From: Polytrichum commune
Lineage: Eukaryota; Streptophyta; Polytrichopsida; Polytrichales; Polytrichaceae
Assembly: GCA_950295325.1 (NCBI GenBank)
Contig: OX485803.1
Coordinates: 15,130,001-15,194,000 of the forward strand
Length of the DNA: 64,000 nucleotides
Direction of reading: 5' to 3'
Shown: piece by piece, positions 6,301 to 64,000 of the stretch
How positions within the stretch are numbered: the stretch's first letter is position 1
Layout: each line of letters opens with the position of its first letter
The notes under the pieces: model-generated
What the model saw: only the letters and a program-made list of their open reading frames with translations
The model's database searches: none
Told to the model about the DNA's origin: nothing
Made by a program: the position numbers and the translations under genes

Positions 6301-9300
6301 TCTGTTGAACTCATCAAAGCAAGCCCAAGCGCCAGAGCTTGCCAGCCCTTTGAAGAATTTTCCCATGGCCAGATAATCTAACCCATCAGAGCAGTTGAAT
6401 ACAACACATTGCATTGCTATTGCTTTAGCAAGATCTTTTGTTGTTTCAGTCTTGCCGGTCCCTGCATATGATATCCAGTGTGTTGTAATCATAATCATTC
6501 AAGTTATTCAGATAGTTTTCTCACCACTGCACAAAATCATGTCAAGTTGGTAAAATAATGTTTGAAATGACAAATTTGAGATGCCATTTGGGGGGCCTAG
6601 CCAATACATTGTTCAGAGAAAGCATCAAGCCAATAGCTTGAGTGGTTGGGACTCATCTACACCTTAAAAGTAGTGTGGGCTCCATTCTCCATCAAGCCAT
6701 GCTAGTGTTTCCTGCTACGGTCCATCCAACCCTTTGTGGGGTCACAGGGTCAGTGTGTCTTTCAGAAAAAGATGTGGTACTGAAGGGATCGTCGAGCCTG
6801 GGTTGGAAGGAACAATCAACAATCAAGTTGCCCCAGTTACGGCCATCAGAAAAAGGCAGCTCAAAACCCCTGGCCTTAACCTGGATCCCATGGGCACTCT
6901 GAAGTCAACCTGCCTAAGGCTGGAATAGTGCTCAAATGGGTGACCTTCCTAGCAAATGATTTTTGGTGCACCTTACAACCTATGCTCCACCCAATCATAC
7001 TTGGGGTATCCAGGCGAACCAAATATTTTCCACCAACCATGTGGGAACCTAGGGGCTTGTCATGGGTGAGGTTAAGTGTGGGTAGGCTTGTCTGCCCCCG
7101 TTCAAGGTGTTCAACTTTAAGAGAAGGCATTATTCTTCAGGGCCCTCTAACTCTCGTGATGCCCGTTTTGGGATTACATATAGACTTAGCCCAAGTCGAA
7201 CATGAAGCAAGACTATAATTCCTGCTGGTGGCAACATCGGAGGCATCTCCTCTTCTACTTCTTCTTCTTCTCCAGCTCTTAATTAAGTTAGTAGCATGTG
7301 GGCGAAGAAAATCTATACTTCATGCTAGGGTAGAAATTATCCTCTTTTTGACAGAAAGACCCACAAATACTAGGTTCAGAGAAGAATAAAAGAACCTGCG
7401 GGTCCTTCGGGAGCCCCTCCTAGGTTCAGGTGAAGGGCACCCATCAGTGTCCGGTAACACCTATCTGTAAGTGGAGTAATCACCAACCGACTGCTGTTCC
7501 CCAAATACTCCCAAGCATACCAAATTCCAGCATTAATCATTCGTACCATTACATTCTCTTGCTCATATCCATACCTGCACATAGAAGGGATGGAAATAAT
7601 GTTATTTCTGATCTCAAGTTTCTTCCAGAAAGAGTTAGATGGAGCAATTGTATAAGGAAAGGAATGTGGGCCTTATGTGGTCACTCTTCTTAATTGGACA
7701 CCTATGTTAGAATGGTGTACAGCAAGGTTTGCAGTTAAGAATGGACACCAAAAGGACATGTGTAATGATGAGATTGGACATGTGCTCCAAATATTGACAT
7801 TATTCTGGGTATAATTGTTCATACAATTGGGGGGCCTAAGAGAAGAAGAATCTCATCTCAACTCCGATTTTGAAACTTGAAATGACAATCTTGGTGATTC
7901 ATCACACTTGCTAACCAGATGAGACAATGCCAGGTTGAATCCAAGGCCAAAATTGGCTGTGGAATTGGAAGTGCCCACAATCCCATCACATTTCTTAGGA
8001 GTAGTGATTACAAAGGTCCATTGTTTATAGACGTGTCACAACTTTAGCAAAACTGACCCACAAAACAAAGAGGTAGTCAAAGAACTACAGGATAGGACAT
8101 CATCTTTATGAAACCTGATTGCATCCTGATTTCCTGGTTCAATATGAAACCGTCCCAAACCAGGTCAGATACCTTCAGAAGATAGGAAACCCAATTTCTG
8201 GAATATCTTGAAGGCTGTCAGGAAATCTATGTCCGGCACTGGACAGAAGGAAAATTTAGGTTGACAGCAATCTTACTTTTCAAGCATTTCCTGAAATTTT
8301 CTAAGCCAAGTATTTAACAAAGCAAGGGAAGTAAATGTCATGTAGTTGGGACGTCTTCATTTTAAAAAGGTGAAGACCTTACCGTAGCTGAGAGATCCAG
8401 TCAAAATCTGTCACATCTGTCAAACCAGAATCAGCTAATTCTTTGACAACATCACGGGCATGCACATCAATAACAATAAGTGCTCCTATGGTTTTTCTTT
8501 CCAGGCTTGTCAGCTTACCACGAACCTGAGAGTAAACAACATAACCACTGTCTTTTTCATTTTAAATTTCTCAATCCCGGAATTAGTAATAACTGAAATA
8601 TTTTATAAATAACAACAACAATATACCGGTTCTCTCTTTTTCTACATATTTTAAGTATGATTCAATGATGGGCGTGTTCATTCTGTTGTCATTAAGATCA
8701 TTTTGTTCTGATGATTAACATGATCAGCAATATTCCCATGGAATTTTTGGCACTCACAAAGAACAAACTAACCAATGCAAATGCACCCACCTTGTTCACA
8801 ATTGCTTGTAGTTGCATGGTGTTCTTCTGCTCACAGGCTGGAAGAGCACCGATGCGAATACTCTCTTCTACCTCTTTTGTCCAGTACATTTGAGAGGCAC
8901 AAAGAACAATTTGTCCAGGCCACTCCAAAGTCCAATCTACCCTGGCTGTCATTGCATAAGCCTGATAGCCTCGATGACACACATCTTGTAAGCTTTCTCT
9001 CATGGCGTCTTCCACCTGTACTACCGCAAAATGCAGTTGTCAATTTATGCAAGGTCCAATAAGAATACTAGAGAAGATAGGCCTAATGTGAAAGTTGACA
9101 ATATGTAAAGCCTAGGTAATTCCAAAAATCTATATCACAAAAATAGAGAATTCTTTTGTTCCTTTTTTCTTGAATGTCAAAGAAACAGAAACTTTCTAAT
9201 TGAAGACCTTATCATTATGTGAAACTACTTTGGGATTGGCGACTTTTCGGTCCCACGAGCCTTCAGGCTGCTGCAGACGTGACTCGAAGTTGAATCTCAT

Positions 9301-12300
9301 GACTAAATCCCAATTTTAAATATAAAATAGAGCCCCCTTTATATGATATGATAAAGTTGGTGACGCCTACTTAACTTTTCTCTTTTTGTATCAAAGGCCC
9401 TTTTTGTCAATCCACGCGTGTATGTATGGTATGTAACCTTTAATGGTTTTACCAAAAAATATATAGATTTTTTTTGCTTTACATTTTCCGGGCGCAAAAC
9501 GTGCTCGATTGACTCTACGTTTTCTTGCGCGCAGCGCAGAAAAGGCGCAACAAAATCATTTTTCTGGAACACCTTCCAGAAACCATTGTTGATAGAAAAA
9601 CTAACCTCTAGGAGCCACTTCTCAACTGCACCTTGAGCTGTCTTGGGATTGAAATGAAATATAAAGTCCACGCGCTCACCCTCCTCACTTAGCATGGCAA
9701 CAATATCCAAGTCGTCTTCAAAAACAAGTCGATTGATGCCCTCAAATATTTTCTTACAGAAGGGCTGAACTCGCAAGGGATCCTTTGTCTCCGCTAGAAT
9801 CTCCAGCAGCTCATCATTGGAGAGGAAAAAGAACCTAGTAGTAAATTACCATGTCAAGACAAGAAGCTGAGAGCCCTATAGAATTGCAAAACATATACAA
9901 TTCCTGCACGAGCACAAAGATTTCTCAGCAATGGGGATTTGACCAAAGCCATACTTGTCTAACCTTTGAGGACCTGCCTCCTCTGAAACTGTTGAGCCAT
10001 GAGACTTCTAAAAGGCACTAAAACCTAGCAAGTTTGGCAAATGGAGGCTAATCTCACCTGGGGAAGGCAAGGCGCTTGGTCTCCAAATAATCATTCAGAC
10101 CTTTATTCACCAGTTCCAGTTGCTCATTATTGACAAGCAAAGTGTTGAGCAATTCTTCATCACAACCAGCAATCAGCACCTCTGCATTTCGTGCAAGTTT
10201 GATCATGATTTTCCGCCACGAGCTGTCAACAGCCTTGAACCGGCGACCTTCCACAGGCATTTGCATCATTATGTCCTCTGATGTGAAAATAGGCTCCAAA
10301 TACATCCAGGATTGCTGACATTTTAGCCATTCATCAAGCACCTGTAACCATCCTAACAATGAAAGCAGTATGAGTTATTAGGTTCATATTCCTTGCTTGG
10401 TATTTAGGTTTCGTGGTGAAAGCTATGTTCAAAACAATATGCATATGTGCAAACAACCCTGTTTCTAGATTTAATAGGGCATCTGAAGGTGCATTCACAC
10501 ACAAAGCACCGCAGCAGTTGAGTTGGACTTGTAGCCCACCTTTGACCACAAGTACAGGTATTTTTTATTATACACACAACTCCTCTTGTGTTTGAAGACT
10601 CTATTTGACCTCAATGATCGTCCCTCCTAGTGGTGCGATTCGTGGAGTGGAGACTAACCAATTTATGAACTCTAGTGCAAAGTGCGTCCAAGAGTAATTG
10701 CCTCCTACAAATCCTTTCCCATGCTTTGGCCTTAGAGTTCCCTCCAGTGCCACGAAGTAATTACAAACAATATAGAGCCAAAGAAAGTAAACTACAACCA
10801 TCGCAACTACTTCCAATTTCACCTTGCATTGTAGTTGGGCAAGGTAGAGTACTTGTGGTTGTGGTTGTAATCAATCCAAAGGAAGCAAACTGCAACCATC
10901 AACCACTGAATCGGTGGTTGTGTGTAATCACACCTTGAATTTTAAATTTCAGAACGGAAGAGGCATAGAGGGTTTTAGGTTAAAGGTTTAGGTTTTAGGG
11001 ATGACCTCCTGGACAAGATTGAGTTTTTCAAGCCACAGCTTCACACGATCTTCAAAAGGACCAATATAAGGAGACGTTGCAAGCGATTGCGTCTTCACCA
11101 AATGCTCCTCCAGCATTTGTTGTAAGTCATCAACACCACGCAAAACAGTTGTCCCCGTGGCATGCCATGGTCCATACTCAAACTTCACACCAGTCCATGC
11201 AGCTTGCATTTTGTCAAGGCTTTGCTCCACTGCATACTCTTTGGTGGCAAATTCACTCACCTGTCCATGATCACATCGCATTGTCATTCTGAAAGTATTA
11301 AATATACGTGTAATGAGATACACCATAACCATGCCACTCTGCTAGCCAGAGATCTTCAGTCATGTAAAGAACACTCATTGTTTGAATACATCTCACAATT
11401 TGTGTGCTTTATTAGATTTATCTTCTAATCAACATGACTTTTGGTCAGGAGTTGGTTGTTTTGCATACAAGACCTTCCATGTTAAGTGAGTTATTGGTGC
11501 ATGATTGGAGGTAGTGTGGAGTCATGCACAAAGAACATTGTATATCGGTTCATTGAGGGTCAAACTCATTTTGGCATACAGATGAGTATGGCTCTCAATG
11601 AACCCAAATAGGTTGCTCTACTTTCAAATTCACTACCTCTGAGGATGAGACCTTAATTGAGTTCCTCATATTAACTAATGTGGCCTGTGCCCATTGGTTG
11701 TCAGAAAGATCTCAATGTGACTAATAAACGAATAAACAAACAAATCTCATATTTAGGTGAGAATTGATGTTAGTATTTTAAAAACATAGCAGGGCAAAGC
11801 AGAGAATTAACATCAAGGCTGACCTCATCAAGAATAGAAATGTAATTTGGTAAATTGAGCTTCAAGGCAGCACTGACTGTGAAGCTTGGAGTGGCCTTTA
11901 CATGGAACCCAAGCTTTTTACTAAGCATCTGATAATGCCGATCTCGCATACCTGGGTTTCGAAGAGCTGCAATCATTGGGCAATAATGCTGCAAAGTTCA
12001 ACAGAGTAATATCAACTGGAGTAAGAAAACCATGTGCAACCAACATCACGTTTACAAGACCTCATATATCAGGTATAAGTAGTGACCCCTAAAATATGAA
12101 CTCACCATTAACTTGTCATGATATTTAAATTCCTAAATCAGCCTCTTCTCGTAAGACAATCACAGACTTTTCAGGCTTGTATTCCATCTTAGAAAGCCGA
12201 CTTTTTAGTTGGGCCATTTTCATGCTTACTTCAAAAATAATCACCTTTAAGAAGATGAATAACTAGCTCATGTTGGACAACAATAGATATGGACCGTTAC

Positions 12301-15300
12301 CTGGAAGGCTTTGATTTGGGTCTTTAAGGACTCTGCAACAATCTTGGCAGGGCCTGTCAGCAGTTTTGCACATTTTGCGGATGCACGATACCACTGCTCC
12401 ACATTATTCAAGACATCCTCTGCATTGAGAAGACTCATAGGGCCCTCCAACCACTGCGGCAAAACTTTGAGGAATGCTCCAGCAGTTTCCCAACATAGAG
12501 CATAATTCTCAAACTCGCTCAAAAGCGTATCAAGCTCGGGAAACTCAGTGACCATTGCATCAAATATCTGAATCAAATATCCCACTTTCAAAATGTCGCC
12601 ATGAATAAGGCCTTGTAGAAAAAGGATCGCTTTTAAGGCTAGGTTTTAGGTACATTACTGTCACAACTCCTAGATAGTCCCTACCAGTGTTGGATTGGTA
12701 TCACCTATTTTAATATTGAGATTTAGGTTTATAAATGGAGAATTTATTACACTTTTGTTATACCGCTAGGTAAGAGGTATTTAGTATATATTCTTCATAC
12801 CATTCAGGTCTATATACCATCCAAGAACCTTCATACCTAGATAAAATTACCCTAGTATCAGTATGGTATTAGAATGGTATTGACCCAATTAATGACACAG
12901 GTATACAAAGATTTTCTCAGCCTGTGATATCCACCAAGTATCAATATTTGACTGATGCTACAATTTTAATATCGGTCAGGTAGGTAATCTTTGATACCAT
13001 TATTGATATTGCGTGTTGATACCATGCATTCACCTATATACCAGTTCAATATTGGTCTCTACTCACCACCTCGCGATTGTTGTACAGCTCAGCCCTTGCA
13101 ACAAAATCTTGAAGCTTTTCTTGAATTTCCCCAAGAATTACCACACGTTCCTCCACCGCATCAATGTCACCAAGCTTCATGAATTCATGGCACTCCTTCG
13201 ACAGGCTTTTTATATCTAATTTTAACTTCTTGACATCTCGGAAGACCTCATTTGTGAACATCACCTATTTAAATCAGAAAACGCAAGAACAAATATTACA
13301 GCTAGAAACAAAACTCCTTTTCTTCTCATCTTCAATCTGCACAACGACAAGAACATTGCCAAAGATAAGTATCATCATACCCGTGCTTGAGAAAGCCGCA
13401 TCTGAACATTTGTGTACGAATGGTCTATCTTCTGTGGCCAAGCCATGGTGATCCAATAGCAGTTATTAGGTTTCTCAGGTACTTCAAATGAAAAACGGCC
13501 CAACATAGACCATACCTGAAGCCTTCCAGATTCAGTCCCACCAACAATTTAGAATATAGAAGGATAGATGCACTATCTTACTCGAAATACAATGCAAGTA
13601 CATATACCTTACTAGCAAACTAATCAGCAAAACATGTCTTGATCTTGGTCATTGATGTCCAGTTTTCTACCATAACTTTAATTCTACCATAATTTTAGCG
13701 TATGAGCAAACATCTTATATGCTAAAACTCCTTCTGAGTTGTCACTCCTGTCCGGTTTACTGAGTCTGATTCCTCTGGCTAGTTGAGAATTTTGAACTTA
13801 CAGCTACGGAAGATTTGCATTGCTCTGCAAGGGATTTGATTGAATCCTTTGCATCCAGAACATAGTCACGCATCACAGCTAGTTGCTCCGCATTGTCTAT
13901 GGGACTGCACCACCATGTACCACACATGGAAGCTGATTCAAAAATGCAAAGTGATGACATAACAACTGTTTTTCAAGATTAACCACTCTAAATGGTTGGC
14001 ATAAGCCCTACTGCTCATTAATGACCAAAAACAGGCTATTGTTGAAGCCAAGGTTTGAGGAGCTGGTACCCATTGAGCACAGAGTCCATTTCTTCATATT
14101 GTTTGCGAAGAGCCCAATTCTTCTCTGTCGTTACTTCCATTATCTGAATCAACAGACTGGTAGCAATATGTTTTGATTTCTGGTACAGGTCATCACGAAG
14201 TGTTCCACAATCGACCACAAAGAGCCCAAAAGACACCTCCCTGTCCGAGTGGTTAAGTGCTGCATCTGCCTCCTGCTTCCCCGCCCCATAAAAGTATTAT
14301 TAGGTTTCAAGTCCCACACCCTCAGGCTCAAAAGCTCATGTTCATACTGGTTGATGCTTAAAATAGGAGATAGAAGCAATAACCTTTGAGAGCTTCCATC
14401 ACATGAGAAAGACAGATTCACTAATTTCACATGACCTATGACACCAAAGGATGCAAGGAAATTATGACGAACTCAGGGCTGATGAGGAGTGCACATGCAG
14501 CAAAGATTATGCACTTAGGAAGTGTCCAATTTGAACCAAGACCTTCAAGTGGTAGGTAATCTTCTGTTCAAACTCTTCTAAATTATGATGCTCGTCTTTC
14601 CACGTCTTCACAAACTCTTCCACCCCTATCACTGCCAAATCCTCAAACTCGGACTTGTACGACTCTCGCAAACTACTTGGTCCAGAATAGCCTTGCTCCA
14701 ATATATCCTGAGGCAAATCAATATGAGTTGAGACTCAGTACATTAATCCACCTATTTGATTCATACTTGTAATTTAGAGTTATCTTTTAACTCTATTGGA
14801 CTTTCCGTCCAGAATTGGACCCTTATAATTTACAAGTGGTTGGTTTGCATATACTCTCAATAGATTCTTTCCACTTGTGGTGCATGCTTAGACATAGTGT
14901 TTGAATTTGAAAGAAGAGCAACCCTTTTCGCTCCATTGAGGGCCAAACTCATTTTAGCACCTCTTGACGTGCCAAAATGAGTTTGACCCTCAGTGCACCA
15001 ATATAGAATGTTCTTTCAAACCTCCACAATACCTCCAAGGATTCACCAAAAACTTACTAAACACGGGAACATGAAAACAACAACTCCCGACCAGAAGTCA
15101 TGTTGAATTAGAGAATAACTCTTTTAATCCACCAAAGTAATTCATGAATGTGCTGCAAAGTGATCGAACCTTGATTATTCTTTTGGAGTCTACAACCACA
15201 GGATGATTTGCAGCAACGGCCTGAAAATAGCTAGGTACTTCCAAGTGGAACACATCCTCGAGCCTTGTCTGCAGATCTTGTATACTGCTCATGTCAGCAA

Positions 15301-26129: not shown

Positions 26130-26360
26130 GAGAAAATTACCAAATACGACCATACCTCTCATCCATCCAACATAAAAACTCGACCCCCCGTAAATTTGTT
26201 GCTTATTCATCTCAAATGAGTTGGGGTAGGCTAATCCAGGGTCTTCGTAACTAATTCCGGTGTCAAATTAACTACAAAAAGTAACCTCCAGCTGCACACA
26301 ACTGAAGGGCTTCAATGATGGATGGATGGATGAGAAATATGCTCATATACAATAATTTCC
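26130..26360. repeat. Dispersed repeat family R1, copy 1
   Basis: This stretch is homologous, in the same orientation, to 29398-29632. Shared landmarks in order are CATACCTCTCATCCAT, GATTCATCTCAAAT (TATTCATCTCAAAT here), TAATTCCGGTGTCAA and the closing ATACAATAATT. It is followed by a run of 13 G at 26376-26388. Element class unknown. Confidence 0.7.
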
Positions 26361-26389: not shown

Positions 26390-28060
26390 AAGAGCAACTT
26401 GTAAGCCAGTAACTTATCGCAGGTGGTGGGTGAAAGAGGACCGGAATCTGGTGAATCTGCAGCATGCCACGTCACATGCCACGTCATTGTCAGCTGGCTT
26501 TCTCCGTCCATCCTCCTAGATTCAAGATCCCTTTAAAGTAGGCAGGGAACCTAGTGGGAATGCAAGAGTAGTCCAGACTCCGGCCTAGGCAGGGAAGCAA
26601 AAGCTGGGAAGTTGTGGATAAAAGTTGTGGCTCAAGTTGCAAGACCTGCCTTGTTGGCTCGCACTTTCCCTTTCATAATAATGTCGGCATTTTGGCCCCC
26701 GGGCGACGCCCTTCTTATTTGAACATCTAAAGAGCAAGCCCATTCATCCTGCATCTACATTTGCACTTTTTGGCATATGCAATGTAGATGCATATGCAAG
26801 ATAAGCTCTTACTCGTGCCGGTGTATGAAGGAGACATATGAAAAGTAAGGACAACCTACTGAACCTCCCTGCATATGTGAGAGATATGCAGGGAAGGTTA
26901 AATGGAATAAGACAAGAATTCTTTTAACCTCTGACCTACTTTTTTCTCTAGTATGAGCTAGAGACAGATGAACTGGATGAGTTTGAGAAATAACCGGTTG
27001 AAGTTCATGACTTCAAGAAAGATTACCGATCGTTTTAGAGGGAATTCAAGAGATAGTGTTGAAGGCAATGTAGGATGAGTGGCACTTTTGCTTGGATCTA
27101 TATCTGCGACAAAAGCCACTTTTCATTCCCGTATGCAAATGCAAATCTAGGAACGAGTGGGCTTGCTCTAAGGTGATCAACCCATTCCCGACCACCATAA
27201 CATTTACGCATCTTGTGCCAATCTATTTCCGTGCAGCACAATATCAATCTTTAATCAAGGCAAACATGTCATAGGCGATATCCAACTTAGCCCAATGTTT
27301 GTGGCTAGGGTTGAGGCACCTATAACCAACAAAATAAGAGAGTTTGCATCTTTTTAGGAGGAGGGATAGTTGGGGGTTATTTTTCTTGCAAAGAGAAACA
27401 CATTCTAAGGAGAATTTCATTTTTTTTCATATATATGGAAATTGCTACAAATCTTGAAGCAGTAAAGTTTACTACAACACATAGTTAATCTATAGGTTAA
27501 CCCATAACCGCTCATCTAAATGCTACTTCTTGGCTACGACATTTTGTCAAAACTCTTATGATGGTAATCAATCACAAGTTGTCACCACATAAACCTTAAC
27601 TCCGTTCGCCTAAAAAATATAGATTTCATCCATGTCAACGTCACATGTACCCTAGTGAGTGGTTAAATGAACATGGTTGACTATGAATGCCTCGACCTTA
27701 AGTTCTAAGCTAGGTTTACAGTGTATTGTGCAAGCTTATTTAGGTGCCATGATTATCGATTTCAGGAATCAAGCGTCCTCAATTTTCCAATTGATTGGCT
27801 ATCAGAAAGAGGGTAGTATGTCTCACGAATATAGGTCGAAGAGAATATCCACTTAGAATATTTCATAATAAATTGGATATTGCAAAAAATATTCTAGAAA
27901 AATAAGCTTTACTTCTTATTTCTATTTTTCTTCATGGGTAATTTTTTCTATGATTATACCTAATTTGTAGATACACTAAATTGCTCAAGTGGTCGGGAAT
28001 GGGTCGGCTACATTAAACATTGACTCATGGTGGTTAGTGGCAACATTTGTACTCAAGAAT
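26390..28060. other. Intergenic DNA; one partial repeat, otherwise nothing recognised
   Basis: Apart from a piece at about 26962-27056 that belongs to repeat family R2 (GAGTTTGAGAAATAACCGGT, then ATTACCGATC), I see no coding or RNA feature. Confidence 0.4.
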
Positions 28061-28064
28061 GGAC

Positions 28065-28300
28065 ACCAATGAATAGGGAGAACCAACCACTAGTTACACG
28101 TGAGTGACCAATTGAGTTTGAGAAATATTGGTTGAAGTCGGAGACTTTGGGAAAGTTCCCGATCATTTTAGAGGAATTTGTGAAATATGCATCAAACTAT
28201 AAAGAAGAACCAAAAGATCACAATATTTGACTGGTAGGCCTTTGAAACACTAGGACTTAGACCGATTATGTCCAAAAATCTCCTCAAACACTAATTGATG
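28065..28300. repeat. Dispersed repeat family R2, copy 2
   Basis: It is homologous to 43202-43420 and partly to 26962-27056. Landmarks in order are AGGGAGAACC, TTGAGTTTGAGAAAT, CGATCATTTTAGAGGAATTT, ACACTAGGA and ACCGATTATGTCCAAAAATC. Copy 3 has ACCGGTT where this copy often has ACCAATT or similar. Confidence 0.75.
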
Positions 28301-28483
28301 GACACCTAAGAGACTTGTGTTACGATGAGATTGGACTACATGGGCACTATTAAGATAAGCGGGCTTACTTCAATTGCTTATGTTTGAGTGGTGTGGTGTT
28401 AGGTGCTAGAATTATGAGAGATGAGGTGCTTATGTTTGAGTGGTTCAAGACTTCTAGTGTGAATCTCAATTGTGCAAAGAGGG

Positions 28484-29397: not shown

Positions 29398-29632
29398 GGA
29401 GGGAATTGCCGAATACGGGCATACCTCTCATCCATCAAACACAAAAACTTGACTTCCTATACATTTGTGGCCGATTCATCTCAAATAACTTCAATCATAC
29501 TAATTTGGTGTCTTCAATATTAATTCCAATATCAAGTCAACTTAAAAATTTACCTCCAGTTTGTACATTATTCTAGGGATTTGTTTTAATGAATGAGAGA
29601 TACACTCATATGCAATAATTCCCTATCAATGT
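29398..29632. repeat. Dispersed repeat family R1, copy 2
   Basis: Partner of 26130-26360, with the same order of landmarks (CATACCTCTCATCCAT, TCATCTCAAAT, AATTCCAATATCAA, ATGCAATAATT). The copies have diverged by point changes and small indels. Confidence 0.7.
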
Positions 29633-33173: not shown

Positions 33174-33899
33174 TATCAGGGCGATATCAAGGCATTTTCA
33201 TTGATAGATACGATCATGTGCTTTGATTAATTCCATCTTGCCTACTATGATCGATTCGGAAACATAAAGAAAGGAAAAGGATAACATCTATTTTTGCCAA
33301 CACCTCCTCAAGGAGGCAAATATTGATGTTATCAAGGTTAAGTTGGGAAATAACATGAGACTATCTTGAAGTCGATTGTACTTTGCACAAGAAAAAATAC
33401 AGTTGATTATGAGACACTCAAAATCGATGATCAAGACCATGCATCATGTAAGGTATGTGGCCATGTTGTGGGCAATTCCAACTCCATCAACTACTTTGAC
33501 AGTTGGATCAAATTGGAGATTGAGTCATCTCGTAAGTGAGTGTGACTCATGCAGATTGTCATTCCAAGTTTCAAAATTGGAGTTGAGATGCAATATCATA
33601 AGAGTTCAAAGTGAAGATCCTCTCCCGTTGAGTGATCACGTAGGCCCTCTCAATTGCATTAACAATCAAACTCATAATGGTTGATTTATGTTTAGGCCCA
33701 ATGTGTAGTCCAATCTAACAACATAACACATGTCTTTGTTGTGTCCGTTCCCATCTACAAACAATGCAATAAATATAGGTGTCTTATTAAGAAGAGTGGC
33801 CTTCTAAGGTTTGCATCACAAATACCTAATTACTTGAGGAGGAACTTGGGATCTTTCTATTGGCTATACTTGAAAACGATTACCACTTGAAAATAAGTT

Positions 33900-42388: not shown

Positions 42389-43934
42389 TCAAAAACCTTT
42401 TTTTTGGAGCAAGTTTTTGTGATGTATGATCAACCAAAGCTTACTTGAATTTGAGCATGTGTCAATCTCCATGAAAAAGATGCGGAGTTGTTGACATATA
42501 GTGCTCATTTCAGGCCGATCAAAACCTTTAGGCTCCACGCATTGTAATGCTAATTTCGTTATCATCCACATGTTTTTCCTATTGAAATTGTTGCCCAATG
42601 ATGGGTCAACAACTCTTTCTATATGCCCTTCTTGTAGATGTGACCTCACCTGTGGTATCAACAAGAAATTTGAAAGTCATCAAAACTCCTGCATATAAAT
42701 ATAGCAAAATATTTGACACTATTGATCCTTCAATATTTGTGGGCTTCTTGGAGTTGATAAATAAAAATGTTTGAATTTTTGAATTTTTAACTATATTAAC
42801 AAGCTCAAAATGCATTCGGATCATATAGAGGTATTGTAAACAAAGGCTCTATATTAACCTACTAAGTATTAATTTAATTTAAGATATGGTATGGTGGAAT
42901 ACCATCCATTCTAGGCAGCCCTTATTGAATAATCAAATAGAGTGAAGAAAAGTGGTTGTTGAATTAATTCAACAAAGGTATTATTCAATATTTAAAAAAA
43001 ATACAACTAAAATATAATGCTTTATCATATGTAAAAGAGTGCATAATCTCTGTAAAATTTGAGAATCTTGGGCTGTAATCTAGTTTACAAAGTATAATAA
43101 AATTACTAAATTTGCATGATGATATTTTTCAAATAAGAAAAAGTACTTCATTCATAATCTTCTCAAATATCAAATCGAAATATTATCGAAATGAGTCTAC
43201 TTCAATGATCAGGGAGAACCGGTGGTTAGTTACAAACGAACCGGTTGAGTTTGAGGAATAACCGGTTGAAGTTCAAGACTGCAGGAAAATTACCGATCAT
43301 TTTAGAGGAATTTATAGAATATACCCCAATTTAATAAAGGAAAACCGGAGGATGTCCACATGTAACCGGTTGGACTTGCAAACACTAGGATCTCAACCGA
43401 TTATGTCCAAAAATCTCCCCGATAAGTAGACTCTACTTACTAACTTAAATATAGTACATAAGTGTTTAGGTGTTTTCCTTGTCCTACTATGCATACAAAT
43501 TTATAGTAACAATTTATGTTACAGATTCCAAGTTCATTAATGCTTGACAAAAGATGACTTCAAAATCATCAACTCCCTATACTATTGACCTAAATACATC
43601 ACCTAAAGGTATACATCCAAGCACTAAAAAACCAAGATTGAATCTTCCAACAAGATGCTCAAACTAACTCTATTCCAAGGATTAAACCACCACCCAAGGC
43701 TAGTCCATTAATATCAAATGTAACACAAGTTGAAGCACACAAACACAATATTATACATGTAACCCTCAACCAACAAAGTCTTTTTCTTTTTTTCCCAAAC
43801 CTAAATACCAAAAGAGACCACCTCAAACTGGTTGCAATAGCACTTATCCCATAGCCATGCTTTGAAAACTTGTTTCGAGTTCACATATAAACTCGCAGCT
43901 ATGATCAAGGTGAAGCATCCCTCATTCACGCCAA

Positions 43935-47491: not shown

Positions 47492-49177
47492 TCAAAGGAG
47501 GTATAACCTGGATGATGTATCACTTGCAATCTCCGTGTACCCGGAGTGTGTTGTATACGAGAAGAAGACAGGCATGCTCCGAAACGTTGGCGTTACATGG
47601 AGACTCAACCACTTGGCATGCTTGAGCATCCTGCAAACATCTGTGAAGTTGGGCCGCCTCGCCGGTTGTAGTTGCCAACAACTTTCAATGCAAAATTTTA
47701 GGTAATCCGGGCAGTCGTTCGGCAGAGCTGGCCGTAGGCCTTCTTCTCGAATCCTTTTGTGAAGGCCTACCCTTAATGTCACATTGTGATAAGGAGGTAC
47801 ACCATTGAGTACTTCAGAACATACCATTGAGAAGCTCCAAACGTCTGCCTTCAAGGGAAACTTCCTCGGCTGCTTGATATCTTCCCCAAACACTTCCGGC
47901 GCCCCGTACACAGGTGTGCCCCTATTGGGAGTCTGTTGGTGTCCAGTTGAGCTCTGGCAATCCCCCTTGGCTAGCCCAAAATCGGCCAATTTCACATCCA
48001 CATATCCAAACTCACATAGCTCAAGTATGCCACACAAAGGTCTCACAAGCACATTATCAGTCTTTAAATCTCTGTGGGCGATGTTCTTGCCATGCAAATA
48101 TTCCATGGCTCGTGCCACTTGAAGCATAATGTCGATCGCCACAGGCAGTGGAAATGGCATGCTGATGGTTTGAGTTGACCTTGTAAATGATGAAGTAGAA
48201 GACGAAGGTTGACTACGATTCATCTTCGGTTGTGCTGCAATGTGCTCAGTGAGATTTGTGGACATGAGTTCCATCAGTAAGTGCGAGCGGTTGATGCTGT
48301 GAGCTTGTTCAGATGTGTAGGGAGCTTCCCAGTACCCATAAAACTGCACAATATGTGGATGTTGGAGTCCCCGCAACAATGTTGCCTCTTCTTTGTAGAT
48401 GCCTTTGAACACTTTCAGAGCACATGGGCGTCCGAAATACCTAACCTTCAGAACCACGCCAAAGGAGCCTTGCCCTATGGTCTTCGGATCTTGGTAATCA
48501 TTCAATCTTGACTCCATCATTGCTTCCTGGTTAATATTCAAACTTGGCTCAATGTCTTCTACCTTCAAATTGAAGCGGGAACACAACTGAACTGCAAGGG
48601 TGGATTTGTGTGTACTATCTTGCTCTTTTCCTGCTCTAGTTGCAACTTCCTTTACCAATTTTACAAGAGTTGACAACAATTCCGAGTTGTCAGATTTTGC
48701 TGCCACTTGAAGCTCACTGTGCTTGGAGTGCAGGCTCTTGGACAACCTCACGTAATCTTCTTCGGCAGTCTTCAAGAGCTCCAAGGCTCCCTCTTCTGGC
48801 AAGGACTTGACCTGAGTGGCAATGGCAATATGAGACAAGGATTGCCACCAACATACGTCAAGAAGAACCTCCACTAGGTCACCTTTGATTTCGGCGGCAC
48901 CGAAGGCTACTTCTGGCCAGGTGATTGAGTGCTCACAACAACACCTTCGGATCAAATTCTCAGCTTGAGTCATTGTGTTGAGAAAGTGGAGATGAGCTGC
49001 ATGTCTGGAGGATTTGAGATGCTCCTCATTCTCCCTTAAAAATGGTTTGATGTCCAAGAGTTTGCTAGCGAGAAATTGGCACTGACTTTTATTCAGTTGC
49101 ACCTGATTGTCACTTATGCCCACCACTCTTGCTTGCACTGACTCAATGATTTTGAAAGCACGCTGACGTATATCCAT
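47492..49177 (-). CDS. TKL-type protein kinase with helical N-terminal region
   Basis: A single open frame of 561 codons. Residues 1-225 are mostly helical and Leu/Ala/Glu-rich, resembling the N-terminal helical bundle seen in MLKL-like proteins. The kinase domain spans about 230-525: IGQGSFGVVLKV (G loop), ALKVF (Lys255), LMELM, NIAHRDLKTDNVLV (HRD 368-370), LADFGLAKG (DFG 399-401), TPVYGAPEVFG, ADVWSFSMVCSEVL and CIESCWQLQPARRPNF. These mark a TKL kinase. A Ser/Thr-rich insert (residues 318-340) sits before the catalytic loop. No signal peptide or TM segment is seen, so it is probably cytosolic. Similar kinases are, as I recall, expanded in non-seed plants. The last dozen codons may be read-through of a GT donor at about 47506, so the true C-terminus could differ. 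An MLKL-like death role is only a possibility. Confidence 0.88.
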   Translation of the reverse strand: MDIRQRAFKIIESVQARVVGISDNQVQLNKSQCQFLASKLLDIKPFLRENEEHLKSSRHAAHLHFLNTMTQAENLIRRCCCEHSITWPEVAFGAAEIKGDLVEVLLDVCWWQSLSHIAIATQVKSLPEEGALELLKTAEEDYVRLSKSLHSKHSELQVAAKSDNSELLSTLVKLVKEVATRAGKEQDSTHKSTLAVQLCSRFNLKVEDIEPSLNINQEAMMESRLNDYQDPKTIGQGSFGVVLKVRYFGRPCALKVFKGIYKEEATLLRGLQHPHIVQFYGYWEAPYTSEQAHSINRSHLLMELMSTNLTEHIAAQPKMNRSQPSSSTSSFTRSTQTISMPFPLPVAIDIMLQVARAMEYLHGKNIAHRDLKTDNVLVRPLCGILELCEFGYVDVKLADFGLAKGDCQSSTGHQQTPNRGTPVYGAPEVFGEDIKQPRKFPLKADVWSFSMVCSEVLNGVPPYHNVTLRVGLHKRIREEGLRPALPNDCPDYLKFCIESCWQLQPARRPNFTDVCRMLKHAKWLSLHVTPTFRSMPVFFSYTTHSGYTEIASDTSSRLYLL

Positions 49178-49549
49178 TGTATCTGAAATCGAACACTAGT
49201 TCCTAGAAGTTGGACATCTCAGGATTATCTATGAACTAGGTTTCTTTTCGGTAATTTAATCTCCTACGATTGTGGCCCACGTTATTGATCTTGCCATAAA
49301 TGGGTAAAACAACGAGAGAGGAGAAGGTGGCATGGGACATTCGCTACTACAGGGGTTATAACAAGTCATGCAGACCAAGGCCACATCATTTGAACTTTGC
49401 ACTTCGATTAAATGCCACCCTCTATCAAACATATATGGAGTGTAGTTTGACAGGCCTGAGTAATTCAGTGCTCCACTGAATGCTCTAGTTGTGAAGAAAT
49501 GAATCTGGCTGAACTTAAGGCACTAGAAATGCATAACTTGGTTACTTAC

Positions 49550-49720
49550 TTTAATTGGACACCTATACTCAAAGCGGTATATAGTTTAGGTGTGATTCTA
49601 AGAACGGACACCAAAAAGACATGTGTTCAAAAGAGATGAGACTAGGTGCTCAAAATATGTTTATCATTCTGAACTCAATATTCAACATAATCGAGAGACC
49701 TATACAACCATTCTAATGAG
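49550..49720. repeat. Copy of dispersed repeat family R4
   Basis: TTGGACACCTATACTC, then GGACACCAAAAAGACATGTG, then GAGATGAGACTAGGTGCTCA. A related order of phrases occurs at 7690-7800 in a dynein intron (TTGGACACCTATGTTAG, GGACACCAAAAGGACATGTG, GATGAGATTGGACATGTGCT) and pieces at about 2095-2150, 28300-28330 and, inverted, 51375-51415. Confidence 0.65.
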
Positions 49721-51030: not shown

Positions 51031-52790
51031 ATAAGAAAAAATATTAGTAATTAACAAAAAATTGAAATTGCATTATTCAATTTAAAAGGTTAATTTTAAA
51101 TTTATATGTAAGGAGTGGATTGGGCCAGGGTTTAAGGTATGTGGGTGTTATTTGGTTCATTTTTCAAGTTCTCCGTTACATTTACACATCTAAACGCGTG
51201 TTGCATTAGCAAATCTATGATGAAACATATTCGAAATCCAAATTGAAAATCGGACCTTCCTTGATATAGTTACGGGTATTGGAAGTGCATATTTGTTGAT
51301 ATCTTAACTCGATACTTAAATCTTTTCAATTGTGTTTGTTATTGAGAGTAGCGTGATTATCAATATTTGAAGATGTAGTCCAATCTCTTTTAAACATATG
51401 TCTTTATGATGTTTGCTCTTTGATCCTTTGGGGAGGTTCAATTTTTAATCCGGGTTTTGTATATGTTCCATTGTAGATCTGCTAATGTAACCCAAGCTTA
51501 GTTGTGTAAATCTAACAGCGGTAGAAGCTAAAGAACTTGAAAAACGAACCAAAATACACCCATGTGGAGAAGAAAACTTGTCCAAATCAACCATGTGCCA
51601 TGGTGTTGGTAGCAGCCAGGTCCACTACCGTTTTGACAAGAATTGCCATTTTGACTACCTTTTATGCTGAAATGGCGGTGATTGAAACCCATTTTGGGTG
51701 GGACCTGGTTATTGGTTGATTCAATTGCAATGTCATCTGTTCCAACTAAGCACCACTATTTCGATTGCACTTCGGTTGCCGGTTTTGGTTGTTCAGTGCA
51801 CTTATTGGGTGGAGGGTGACCTATTGGTTGCATTTCCATGGTTGCATGTTGTACCGGTCTTGGTGGTTGCCCTATGTGGGTTGACGTCCACCGTATGAGG
51901 GTATGGTTGTCATCCCCAACGCATCTGTTTTTCAGGATTTTGGTGGACACCATCTTCCCTCGTATGGTAGAGGGTGGTAGAGGAAGAAGAGGAAGGAGAG
52001 AGGAACGTACACACTAGTTCCTTCTTTGTGCGGTCATCTCCCAAGCCCTAGCTATTACCACCATCGCCTCCTTTTCCCCTGGTCCAAATTTTGAGCACAC
52101 ACTCTTGTGAATGTAGACGGATTACACTAGAAGGAAAGGTGTCCAAATCAACCTTGCAGGGTTGCAGGAATTACAATGGAAACGGTCACCGGATTCTGGT
52201 GGTAGCCATCAATTGGTGCAATCTTGATGGCCTACTTTAAAGCCAGGTGATGCATCCAATAATGTAGTGTTCAACATCTTGGGGCCGTGGGTGACGGTCC
52301 CCATCCTGGGTGTGAAGCATACCCTTTGCTCATTCTACCACAATGGCTAGGGTGGATTGGGTTTTGGGTGACACTCATTTGGTGGCCTCTTGGTACGTGT
52401 GCCGGAAATGGTGTACTTTGTGGTGCGCCCCACCTACCCGCATCAGTGGACATACCAAGATTGCCACCGCTGTGGGTGCACACATGCCATTCACCTATCA
52501 TGTGTTGACACGACTTCATTGGAGTATATGGAGGGTATGACAAGTTACCTGTCCACGGGTGGTGCATATCAGTCACCGAACTAACCGAATGCGGGTGGAC
52601 ATTTTGGGCGGCATAGTGCATTATTGTAAACCGGGTTGGGTGTCGGGTCAAGTATAGGGTACATATGAAGGTGGCATTCAGGTACATACTTACCCATATG
52701 GTCACCACTGCCAGTTTTGCTTCCAATTGTCGTATCCACGCATGCCACATCAGTTGACAGGTGGCCAAAGAGGTGCCATTTGTTACCCGT
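51031..52790. other. Intergenic DNA; no supported gene
   Basis: The long minus-strand frame at 52271-52807 overlaps plus-strand frames of similar length and shows no domain. Many GGTGG/GGTTG phrases suggest degenerate repeat DNA leading into the following minisatellite. Confidence 0.4.
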
Positions 52791-52799
52791 GGGTGGGTG

Positions 52800-53275
52800 G
52801 CATTCAATGAGTGAAGATGGGTCGGTATTGAGTTGGGTTGGGGTTTAGGGTTATTGTTGGGTGCGCGTTATCGGTGGATGGGTGGTGTTCAATGGTTGAG
52901 GATGGGTCGGTATTGAGTTGGGTTGGTGTTTAGGGTTATTGTTGGGTGTGCGTTATTGGTGGATGGGTTAGTGATGGATGGGCATTTTCGGTGGTTGGAT
53001 TAGTGATGGGTGGGTGTTCTTGGTGGATGGGTTAATGTTGGGTGGGTGTTGGGTAGACGTCCTCGGTGGATGGGTTAGTGTTGGGCGGGTGTTGTGTAGG
53101 TGTCCTCGGTGGATGGCTTAGTGTTATGTGGATGTTGGATGGGTGTTATTAGTGGATGGGTTATGATGGGTGGGCTTTCTCAGTGGATGTCTTCGTGTAG
53201 GTGGGCGTTCTCGGTGGAAAGATTAGTGTTGGGTGGGCATTCTCGATGGATGGGTTAGGGTTTGCTTTGAATTCT
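52800..53275. repeat. G-rich degenerate minisatellite
   Basis: The stretch is built of variants of GGTGGATGGGTTAGTG plus TTGGGTGGGTGTT. A larger unit of about 85 bp (GATGGGTCGGTATTGAGTTG) occurs at 52816 and 52901. The plus strand is strongly G-rich with many GGG tracts. Confidence 0.8.
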
Positions 53276-55940: not shown

Positions 55941-57678
55941 TGTTAGGACTGCCACATGGCCCGCAATTTCCAGCATGGAAACCATGGCATGTGGATGTTA
56001 GTTTGGTTTTAAGGGGAGAACACTTCGGTGTTTCTCTCATCATTTTGCAATGCAAATGTTATTTTTTTCAATTCGGACCTTATGCTTTACTTCACCTTCG
56101 GTTTGAGTTGAGTTTGAGTACATGTGTAATGCAAGTAGTTTCTCTTTTCCGTACTTGAGGTTTCCGAGTTTTCTGCCATTCCCTATCACTGTATAGGTTA
56201 GTTAGGTTAGTATTCCGTGATAGGACAGGGGGTCAGTAATACCCCGAGGTGCGTGTGGTTAAAACGCCCCTATGTGAGCATGTGATGGGCGGAGGAATCT
56301 TAAGCGCGGAAAGGAGGAAAGGATTGGCCGAGCAACGGGAAAGATCTCCACCGTGGGGTTGTTGGGCAAGGGAAGTTCCACACCCACGGTAGGTTCTTCC
56401 CCACTTATTCTGTCCAACTAGGGACCGACAATGAGCAGCAGTGGATAGACCTGTCCAATAGTAGGGGGAGAGTTTTGGTTTACGCCTTCCGCTTGCCGTG
56501 ACCTGGAGGTGGATCACACCGATCAGCAGTAACGGAATGGTCTAGAACACTCATGCACCTGCCGCGACTGGCGCTTGGTTCCCACCGCGGATGGTAGGCG
56601 TAGTAGCCCCATCCCTATGTTAGCCCCGCCGTCACAGAAATCAACAGACCTTAGATCCTATCATGTGTGACCTGTGGAACAGCACAAGCTACCCATTGTG
56701 AGGATAGGAGCGAAGATGTTGTGTTTCTACCTTTCTCGAGGGAGGATTCGGTTTCCGCGTGTGGTATAGTGGAAACTGTGCCATCATGGAAACCGGATCA
56801 AGCTGGTTTGTAGACCCAAAACTTCCTCCACCTTTCCCCCCGTCAAAGGGGGTGGCACGCGTCGGATACTTGAGTGGGACACCTGGGACACCTTCCCGAG
56901 GGAGGGCTGTCCCCATCATAACACTAGTCTAAGGGAGTAGTAGTTAGGAGGAGGAAGTGGAGATAGGGAGACAACCCTAAGAAATCAACTCAAAGGGTGA
57001 AATTCTGATGAACAACTACCAAGTCTCTCTGAGCATTCTAGCCTAAAACACTAGAATTATGGTCCTTGTGACACGGTCGAAAATCTAGCAGATAGTGGAA
57101 ATACATGTCCGATCTGCTACCTCTATCGTAGAAACCTTATCCCGGAAGTCATGACCCGTAATAAGGAATCTTAGAATGGAGTGTATATAGTTGTTATACT
57201 ATGGACTCGGGACGCTGAGTCTATTGTTGTTACTACTCTAAGGTGGGAGCTTGTCCATATTTTGTGTTGTGTTCCCTACCTCGGTCCACTACCGGAAAGG
57301 CGGAAATATCCGTGCCATACTTTCCGTAATATCCCGGATTTCTTAATCCGATTTGTGTTATCTTAGTTTCTGGTGTTTCTTGTGTGTGTGTTAGTGAAAG
57401 ATTTCCTCCCTGTATGTTGTGAACGACCGCAGGTTCTTCGTGGGAACGAACTTGGCACGGCTGTAACGTTTTACGCGTTTATCAGGTTAATTTAATGAAT
57501 ACGTCACCACCGTGCTACGACATGTGATTTTGGCGCGGCTGTGACGTTTTACACGTTTATCAGGTTAATTTAATGAATACGTCACCACCGTGCTACGACA
57601 TGTGATTTTGGCGCGGCTGTGACGTTTTACGCGTTTATCAGGTTAATTTAATGAATACATCACCACCGTGCTACAACA
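55941..57678 (+). mobile_element. Candidate 3' LTR of the gag-like element
   Basis: A purine-rich tract (TGAGGTGGAT) directly precedes TGTTAGGACTGCC, as at the start of a 3' LTR. The stretch ends with CTACAACA, so the termini TGTT / AACA are inverted, as in LTRs. The end falls exactly where the 78 bp repeat array stops. No partner 5' LTR is seen upstream, so this is an inference from termini only. Confidence 0.4.
57454..57678. repeat. 78 bp tandem repeat, 2.9 copies
   Basis: Units start at 57454, 57532 and 57610 with GGCGCGGCTGTGACGTTTTA or a one- or two-base variant, and each contains TATCAGGTTAATTTAATGAA and CACCACCGTGCTACGACATG. The copies are almost identical, so the duplication is recent. 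Confidence 0.93.
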
Positions 57679-60517: not shown

Positions 60518-60824
60518 TGTTTAGGGCTTAGGGTTTTCATTGCACTTAGTTACTATGAATGTGTATGAAGGAGGCATTAGTCACATAATTTAGAGAATGA
60601 ATTAGTATAAATATCCACAAGCACTAGTAGAAAATTATGCGTCCGGATCAACAGAAAGGCGTTGGTCGCGGTTGTTACTTAAGACGTGTTGACTTGAGCA
60701 TGAAGTAACACAATTTTGTTGATTTTTTCTGTTGATCTGGTCACAAAAAGTTTTTTTTTAAAAAACTTATTTTTTTTATTTATATATACATATATATCAT
60801 TAAAAAATCAAACATGAATGGTTG

Positions 60825-61005
60825 CCGGTCTGCAACTTCTAACCCCTCCCAAATAACCCTCAACCTATACCTCACCTACAAGAATAGACAACCTACCACT
60901 CACCTAGGTGGCAAGGCCAAGGCCAAAGGTGTCGGCCACGGGGTTCGAACCTTGCACCTAGTGACACCCATACATGTGCCTTAACCACTAGGTCATCACA
61001 TCACA
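60825..61005 (-). mobile_element. tRNA-derived SINE-like element inside the CACTA element
   Basis: On the minus strand a pol III A box (CCTAGTGGTTAAGGCAC, 60976-60992) is followed by a B box (GGTTCGAACCC, 60941-60951) at tRNA-like spacing. A GC-richer tail follows toward lower coordinates. This is the usual head of a plant tRNA-derived SINE. It does not fold as a real tRNA that I can support. Ends and duplications are uncertain. Confidence 0.6.
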
Positions 61006-61069
61006 CATGATATAAATGGAGTGTTTTAAACCTTTCTAGACTAAGGCCACTATTTTCTCTTTACTACCT

Positions 61070-61390
61070 ACTTGATGTATATATTTACAGTAAATATTTA
61101 CATAATATTTACTGTATATAATTACAGTAAATATATACAGTATATATATACTGTATATAATTACAGTAAATATATACTATATATATATATATAATATAAT
61201 TACAATAAATATATACTGTACATATATATTGTATATATTTATAGTAAATATATACATATTAATATGTATATATTAATATATACATATACATATTTTATAT
61301 ACATATATATTACATATATGATATTTATATTATATTAATGTGTATATATATATAATATTAACTATCAACTAATATAATATTTATAATATT
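61070..61390. repeat. AT-rich palindromic tandem repeat
   Basis: Many overlapping copies of ATTACAGTAAATATATAC and its complement, then TATATATTAATATATACA. Lies within the CACTA element and can form many hairpins. Confidence 0.85.
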
Positions 61391-62002
61391 TACACACCTT
61401 TGAATTCGTAATTATATCCACACCCATACACTTACAAGTCGATAAATTGCAAAATATTAAAAAGATTCTATCATATTCCAAAAGATTCTATAATATTCCA
61501 AAAAAAATTCACATTTACTAAAATTTTGTTGATTTGGTCATTGTACTATTCAGATCAACAAAAATGTAGGCAGCAAACTGTTGATTTTTACAAAAATTCA
61601 AAAATCAGTGAAATCGGTCATTGCTGTGCCCGGATCAACAAAGATCTGTTGATGTTTTGTTGATTTGGTCATGATTTTCTAGTAGTGAAGTATGTTTAAA
61701 TTGTTGAGAGACAAGCATTATGAGTATAAAAAAGAATGAGCCGGTGCTCTATTTCATTATGGTTATATAGTGATGAAATATAGTTGGTTAATTCAAGTTA
61801 AAATATATAGTATAACTAGAGTTAACATCCTTTTATTTTATCGCTATCGTCCTATGTTTACTAAGCCATGGATGGAACCGGAGAGTGAATGGATAACATT
61901 CATCATGTCTTAACAATCCTCCTCGAACGATGATCTTCCTCGTTAAAAAACCTTCATAATGTTGTGAAGGAAAAAAAGTAAAGTCATCGTTCGCCATCTA
62001 AT

Positions 62003-62325
62003 TCACTCTAGTTCAGTAAGGGTCCTCATACCAGCCGCAATGATTAGTTTGCGGTGCTGAGGGGCTGGTAGTGCTTTGGTGAGGACGTTGGCGATGTTGT
62101 CTGCTGATGCAATCTTCTTGACCTCGATCTGCTTGGTCTCCATGAGGTCTTGAATATAGCCGATGAGGTGAGGACTGATGTGCTTGACACGGTCGGCTTT
62201 GATGAATCCGGAGGAAACTTGCTCAATGCAGGCCGCGTTGTCTTCAAATATGGTCGTGGGTTTGTCCATCAATGGAAGACCACTCATTTGAAAGATGGCC
62301 TGTTGCATAGTGCGTAGCCAAACGG
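62003..62325 (-). pseudogene. Ty1/copia polyprotein, 3' end (RNase H C-terminal part)
   Basis: This is the last part of the copia frame, separated from the rest by the insertion at 62326-63475. It reads TIFEDNAACIEQV (the conserved EDN of RNase H), HISPHLIGYIQDLM and NIANVLTKAL, then stops at 62003. The first few codons (VWLRTMQQAIF) directly continue the frame that breaks off at 63476. No stop or frameshift is seen inside the fragment, so the insertion is the only visible lesion here. Confidence 0.88.
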
Positions 62326-62412
62326 TGTCGTGACGTAAATACGTACACTATATAGATGTGTACGTATTTAATATTGCATTGTGATTCTTGGTCTTGGAGA
62401 AAAATAATAAAG

Positions 62413-62600
62413 AATAGAAGTAGATTACTTTTTTTATTTACTCATAGTTTATTTTAGCTATCATTACCTAAGGATAGAAGTGGATAGAAGTTGCTTACCT
62501 TTATGTTTACTCATAGTTACTCTTAGTTACCTTTACCAAATGATAGAAATAGATTACCTTTTTATTTACTCATAGTTTATTTTTGTCTTTTAGTTATCTT
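62413..62600. repeat. ~65 bp tandem repeat within the solo LTR, 3 copies
   Basis: Each unit has GATAGAAGTAGATTACC or variant followed by TTTACTCATAGTTTATTTT or variant. Arrays like this are common in LTR U3 regions and can act as enhancers. Confidence 0.75.
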
Positions 62601-63070
62601 GAGTTACTTTGGACCAATGGGTGATTAGAAGCCATGTGATGAGGATAAGAGAGAACTTTGTCTCTCGCATGGATAGGGAGAGGTGGTGAAGGAAAGATGT
62701 TATGTGATTATTGAGGGAGAGAAGTTGTGGAGAGAGAGAGAAGTGGATTCGAAGCTCACGGTGTGAGTTGTTTTAAGAAGAATATGAAATAAAATACGAG
62801 GGATTTGTGATTCATGAGAGATCTCACTTGTTGTTTTGGAAGTTAGCAATCAAGATTTGTGCTTGTTTGAGTGGAGGGAAGTCTGTTGGTTCTTAAAAGA
62901 AGAGCTGAGACTTCGACCGACCATAGAAGACGGACAGATTAAAGAATTGAAGGCTTCAAGACTCGAATGTGTGGTTGCTTGTGGCACGTTGTCTTTTTCT
63001 TGTGTGTGTGATTCCAAGCCGGTTTTGGAGGCTAGTTGCATTTCATTTCTGCATCGTAATTTGTTTCTTG

Positions 63071-63148
63071 TGTGACAACGAAGTGGGATTAATGACCCAC
63101 AAGGTTGTTTGTGACAACGAAGTGGGATTAATCACCCACAAGGTTGTT
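63071..63148. repeat. 39 bp tandem duplication within the solo LTR
   Basis: TGTGACAACGAAGTGGGATT followed by AATGACCCACAAGGTTGTT occurs at 63071 and again at 63110 with one base changed. Confidence 0.93.
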
Positions 63149-63475
63149 TTCTGTCGTTCCCACTGGTGAGGCGCGATTGCTGGTCACCGTGGGTTTGAAA
63201 GTTTAGGAGCCAATCTTTCGGACGTCAGCTCGTGTTCTGACGTCCCGTTTTACCCGTCCGAAGCCCGTGGTTTCTTATCACACTACCCTTACCCTTTATC
63301 CATATAGAGCCGCAACAGGATAGGTCGACGGGAAAGAGGTTGAAGATTAGAAGAAATTGAAGACTAGAAGACCGGAAGATTCGATTGAAGATCAGAAGAT
63401 TCGACGGGTCCGATAAAATCTAGTTGCAGCCAGAAGCCCAGCGCTTTCCCAAGGCGGAACCCTCTCTACCCGACA

Positions 63476-64000
63476 ACGGGTTCACGGGAGGCCTCGTGGA
63501 ATGAGAGTAATTCAGCATGATTTGTGGACGTAGCTGTCACGGTGTGCTTGGTGGAACGCCATGAAATCGGTGCGCCATTTTTTATGAAGATATAGCCGGT
63601 TTGAGACTTGCCTGAAACGGGGTTTATCTTGAATCCAGAGTCTACGTATCCAATGATGTCACTGGAAGTATTCTTGCGAAAGTGTAGGCCGAGATCCTCC
63701 GTGCCGCGAAGGTCGCGTAGGAGATGCTTGACGCCCTGCCAATGCCGGGAGGTTGGTTTTTTACTGTGACGCGCGAGGACGCTGACGGCGAATGAGATGT
63801 CCGGCCGGGTATTCGTGGCAAAGTACAATAGAGCTCCAACTGCGGCCAAGTATTGTGGCTTGTCGATCTCCTCCTCCTCCTCATCTGCTGGCCGGTAGGG
63901 ATTGTCTTCAGTGCGACTTTTGCCAATCATGGGAGCTGAAAGCACGTTAGCGTTATCCATGTTGAATGTGCGGAGTAACTTTTTCACATATATTTGTTGA
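63476..64000 (-). pseudogene. Ty1/copia polyprotein: end of reverse transcriptase and RNase H N-terminal part
   Basis: The frame is open to the right edge of the window, so the rest of the element lies beyond it. It reads YVKKLLRTFNM, a Glu run, QYLAAVGALLYFATNTRPDI (the conserved connection of copia pol, split across two quotes in most members), FAVSVLARHSKKPTSRHW, then the RNase H start IIGYVDSGFKINP and KSQTGYIF. The usual DADWAG motif of copia RNase H is DSGFKI here. The frame ends at HEASREP where the 62326-63475 insertion begins. Inserted and disrupted, so not functional. Confidence 0.88.

Follow-up and report, generated by a model that had tools for sequence, protein, structure and literature searches.

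Nested elements of the copia, LTR and CACTA classes are common across plant genomes. The target duplication of plant LTR elements usually measures 5 bp, and a duplication of 4 bp is unusual. For plant Helenus, a duplication of 5 bp is given (PMC10886601). For Chenopodium CACTA elements, the published description names CACTAGTAGAAA ends, subterminal units in repeated copies and duplications of 3 bp (PMC8978399). Ginger1 elements have TGTNR ends, inverted repeats of 40-270 bp and 4-bp target duplications that are CCGG (75%) or CCGT/ACGG (24%) among 112 Hydra elements (PMC2836005).

The locus considered here occupies positions 60518-64000 of a 64,000-nt window, the whole stretch of DNA that was analysed, and its features were found where an earlier note had placed them. 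The locus appears to be a copia-like element that was struck by a solo LTR and by a small CACTA-type element (Table 1). We regard the following layered reading as fairly probable: a minus-strand copia element received an LTR insert that is now solo, as well as a CACTA element that most likely lies in its 3' LTR, and the tRNA-like stretch inside the CACTA element is a SINE or other DNA. Our confidence in this reading is reduced because the reading frame alone is satisfied by 4 of 11 candidate insert boundaries, and because the placement of copia before CACTA depends on where the copia LTR ends.

Table 1. Features of the nested locus, in window coordinates
Feature	Position	Strand	Basis or remark
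Copia-like pol, from the end of reverse transcriptase into RNase H	63477..63999	-	Open until the insert edge, last residues ...HEASREP
ACGG duplication, right copy	63476..63479		Sequence
Solo-LTR-like insert, 1150 bp, TGTCG/CGACA ends, TGTCGTGACG...CTACCCGACA	62326..63475		Ends, ACGG duplication, frames
39-bp unit in two copies, 97% alike, in the insert	63071..63149		Repeat analysis
Tandem array in the insert, diverged copies of a ~69-bp unit	62414..62583		Repeat analysis
Perfect 13-bp hairpin (9-base loop), set 10 bp in from the left end of the insert	62336..62370		0/200 resamples of the insert
ACGG duplication, left copy	62322..62325		Sequence
Copia-like RNase H end, VWLRTM...LTELE before the stop	62006..62323	-	Open frame
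Purine-rich GAGGAGGAT abutting the putative 3' LTR	61916..61924	-	Sequence
Putative 3' LTR of the copia element, TGTTAAGAC...CCTAAACA	60518..61915	-	Far end provisional
AAG duplication flanking the CACTA-like element	60619-60621 and 61688-61690		Sequence
CACTA-like non-autonomous element, 1066 bp, ends CACTAGTAGAAAAT / CACTACTAGAAAAT	60622..61687		Ends, AAG duplication
AT-rich array within the CACTA-like element, imperfect tandem and palindromic repeats	61075..61358		Repeat analysis
Possible SINE head with tRNA-like A and B boxes, within the CACTA-like element	60941..60995	-	Box search

The interrupted copia-like frame

Two minus-strand frames, 63999-63477 and 62323-62006, join in phase (HEASREP / VWLRTM) across the 1150-bp insert. 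The second of these reads VWLRTMQQAIF...SADNIANVLTKALP...LTELE before its stop. The frames contain TRPDI, ISWRS, EDN and SADNIANVLTKALP, which we take to be copia-like motifs, and they are followed by a purine-rich tract. Judged by these motifs, the pol pieces likely belong to the Ty1/copia group. As in Ty1/copia elements, the presumed RNase H motifs stand at the end of pol, followed by the purine-rich tract and by a putative LTR that starts with TG and carries a TATA box. In contrast to such elements, the 5' LTR and most of pol lie beyond the window edge, and the pieces were recognised by no profile library (including Pfam) or solved structure that we searched. Profile matches below the threshold, to NeuB (E 0.016) and PRK12938 (E 0.18), were taken as chance, and single-sequence fold models of the two pieces (mean pLDDT 39.2 and 49.8) were too poor for use.

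An insert of 1150 bp with TGTCG/CGACA ends and an ACGG duplication had been described previously, and we confirmed it at the same position. By themselves, its ends and duplication prove little. When TG..CA termini, 5-bp inverted ends and a 4-bp duplication are required, the 2087-bp copia stretch contains 2 pairs, compared with a shuffle mean of 0.48, and at least one such pair arose in 180 of 500 shuffles of that stretch. Across the whole window, the same rule yields 106 pairs, whereas 20 shuffles averaged 86.75. The insertion is accepted because both open frames close just inside the edges of the insert and share one phase. The frames 63999-63469 and 62347-62006 run only 7 and 22 bases into it before closing, and their phase agrees after subtracting the 1150 bp and one 4-bp ACGG copy. 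Phase is not unique evidence, since it is also satisfied under a looser rule (3-bp inverted ends, 4-6 bp duplication) by 4 of the 11 pairs around the break. Among these four, only 62326-63475 has edges that match the ends of both open frames.

Identity of the 1150-bp insert

Judged by its sequence features, the insert is most plausibly named a solo LTR. It is a single unit with TG..CA ends and a short target duplication, with ends and duplication that do not exceed chance. The insert resembles Ty3/Gypsy-type solo LTRs (TGTNR ends) in its TGTCG/CGACA termini, its single unit without a long coding frame and its short duplication. It differs from them in that the duplication is 4 bp instead of the usual 5 bp and in that no full-length relative was seen. 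In the inverted comparison of its first and last 150 bp, the local score was 8, a value that 227 of 300 resamples also attained; the direct comparison of its two halves scored 16, attained by 27 of 60. Neither similarity exceeds chance, which is what a single LTR should show, and a two-LTR TRIM was rejected because the halves are no more alike than chance allows. The insert was also rejected as a copy of the copia LTR: comparison with 226 bp of the latter gave scores of 18 and 20, which 3 and 6 of 60 resamples attained (weak, not nil), and blastn of the insert against the copia LTR returned no match. A second copy of the insert sequence was not found within the 64-kb window.

The length of the duplication can also be read differently. 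The left flank ends in AACGG and the right boundary is CGACAACGG, which is one A short of CGACA plus AACGG. In this version of the solo-LTR reading, the duplication would be the 5-bp AACGG, with one A of three lost at the right. We consider this possible, if somewhat doubtful; it costs one extra event, whereas the 4-bp duplication costs none. The TGTCG at both ends and the 4-bp ACGG duplication fit, in addition, the TGTNR ends and target described for Ginger1 (PMC2836005). The insert could then be a non-autonomous cut-and-paste element related to Ginger1 and mobilised by a Gypsy-integrase-like transposase. We find this very improbable, as the inverted repeats of the insert stop after 5 bp, compared with the 40-270 bp stated for Ginger1, and no transposase is present in the insert, whose longest stop-free stretch is 93 codons. 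A shade less probable still is that the insert represents a Ginger1-type element, or a derivative without long inverted repeats, which in a probable land plant would have kept the ACGG target choice of Hydra. A solo LTR is our best reading of the insert.

The CACTA-like element and the putative copia 3' LTR

A CACTA element of 1066 bp with an AAG duplication, also claimed in the earlier note, was recovered. Its ends match at 13 of 14 bases next to a 3-bp duplication, which ranks first among the 10 such pairs of the window; shuffled windows attained 12 of 14 at most, in 1 of 20. The end alignment score of 18 was reached by 6 of 300 resamples. Besides its inverted CACTA ends and 3-bp duplication, the element has subterminal repeats of RATCAACA, a motif that was picked after viewing the ends. 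The window contains 17 copies of it, and 8 of them lie within these 1066 bp, in both orientations (3 forward, 5 reverse). The element shares CACTAGTAGAAAA-type ends, subterminal repeats and a 3-bp duplication with CACTA (En/Spm) elements such as Chenopodium Jozin (PMC8978399), and differs from them in its length of only 1066 bp, its lack of a transposase and its AT-rich core. No transposase was found in it, and the 1066 bp hold no frame of at least 150 aa, so it would be at most a non-autonomous member of the group. Rfam microRNA matches in the AT-rich core were rejected; the best had an E of 0.00092, yet its 32.4 bits fall short of the gathering score of 100.

The sequence TGTTAAGAC at 61915, abutted by GAGGAGGAT, is likely the start of the copia 3' LTR. 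TATATAA occurs inside the putative LTR, placing the TATA box at about 147 bp. Among the candidate ends listed down to 60300, three are likely (60518, 61702 and 61693), and all give TGTT..AACA. A fourth AACA, at 61855, was set aside; it would make an LTR of 61 bp. With the end at 60518, the LTR measures 329 bp after discounting the CACTA element and one AAG. The proposal that the CACTA element split this LTR, with 60518-60618 as LTR sequence, holds in so far as the element starts 228 bp into the putative LTR, but the end at 60518 is not unique. Both 61702 and 61693 precede the CACTA-like element and yield an LTR of 214 or 223 bp. If the LTR ended at either position, the CACTA element would have landed beside the copia element and not in it, and nothing would show which of the two arrived first. 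We judge this unlikely. The end at 60518 fits too, with more room beyond the TATA box, whereas the shorter LTRs require that the CACTA element landed within about 15 bases of the LTR end. Insertion of the CACTA-like element inside the copia LTR is likely.

The tRNA-like stretch within the CACTA-like element combines an A box that has a single mismatch with a fully matching B box, GGTTCGAACCC, and the two are spaced as in a tRNA. The A and B boxes of the tRNA-derived SINE head proposed earlier are thus present, but its flanking duplication does not exceed chance. The candidate duplication is imperfect (10/11; 61000-61010 and 60807-60817), and its score was equalled in 53 of 200 resamplings, or in 73 of 200 when the downstream side alone was resampled. 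The stretch may be a SINE. That it represents chance or captured DNA is somewhat short of an even prospect. Box pairs of similar quality, with at most one mismatch in each box, occurred in 14 of 50 shuffled windows, and the real window contains one further pair at 28381-28452; a looser rule gives 15 pairs in the window (10 plus, 5 minus). No tRNA was detected at the stretch by ARAGORN, no tRNA family was among the Rfam matches, and no other copy was found within the 64-kb window. Against an origin by chance or capture, the only mismatch here is in the A box, the B box being perfect, whereas the shuffles permitted one in each, and the 11-bp repeat lies about where a SINE duplication belongs.

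Order of arrival and the surrounding window

A piece-by-piece search of the window at E 0.01 did not turn up a further copy of any layer. A self-comparison of the window in overlapping pieces (E 1e-4; 34 rows) involved 60518-64000 only through the tandem repeat inside the insert. Three copia protein patterns gave 44, 11 and 65 stretches in viral contigs, and one piece used as a pattern gave 139 in genome contigs, none of them a relative. One DNA pattern of the insert gave 0 matches in viral contigs, and no match was obtained for one protein piece in phage records or for the insert in plasmid records. As none of these collections is of plants, little can be concluded from the absence of matches.

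Other repeats occur elsewhere in the window. Three copies of about 250-350 bp (642-991, 11399-11647 and 14781-15136), in both orientations and about 70-81% alike, match their own reverse complement and look like a MITE-type family with inverted ends. A dispersed family at 26964-27046, 28067-28283 and 43203-43418, two copies of which are 74% alike over 219 bp, may be a SINE family; a loose A/B-box pair lies at 43221-43276 in its third copy. Another dispersed family (7671-7980, 33466-33809 and 49551-49702) is 67-76% alike, and the direct repeats 26135-26360 and 29404-29623 share 71% over 227 bp. Tandem repeats include a dense G-rich region with several nested periods (52782-53257) and a 78-bp unit in 2.9 copies with 95% matches (57452-57678). 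Among coding sequences, a protein kinase domain lies in a 567-codon open frame (47492-49195, minus), and minus-strand dynein heavy chain frames at 2288-3346 and 9339-9845 (Pfam Dynein_AAA_lid, E 1.2e-30; DHC_N2, E 2.6e-28) point to a host that probably has motile cilia or sperm. The dynein frames mark the window as eukaryotic and, taken with the plant-type CACTA ends, suggest a land plant that has swimming sperm.

The earlier note had read three features well: the copia-like element, the insert that interrupts its RNase H region, and the CACTA-like element. Its four-layer nest does not stand, as the 1150-bp insert lies beside the CACTA-like element, neither being inside the other, and the SINE is a possible layer only. 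Two nest levels have good evidence, and there are three at most: copia, CACTA and the possible SINE. The claim that the order of arrival can be read from the duplications was too strong. Since the insert interrupts the copia-like frame, the copia-like element is older than the insert. It is older than the CACTA-like element only if the latter sits within the LTR. The insert and the CACTA-like element lie side by side, so their relative order is unreadable. A SINE, if real, may have arrived before or after the last move of the CACTA-like element. Layered remains of this kind are usual in plant genomes.

We propose that an LTR retrotransposon of copia type integrated in minus-strand orientation. 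A second LTR retrotransposon would then have entered its RNase H gene while the end of pol was still open or at least undecayed, and recombination between the LTRs of the newcomer would have reduced it to a single LTR. Before or after this LTR insertion, a transposase-less CACTA element would have landed, most likely in the copia 3' LTR, carrying a tRNA-like stretch that could be an inserted SINE or other DNA.

None of the features seen at 60518-64000 suggests a host function or points to a new mechanism, and the nested insertions here are ordinary. The locus is a fair teaching case, in which in-phase frames identify an insertion where ends and duplications alone fail.
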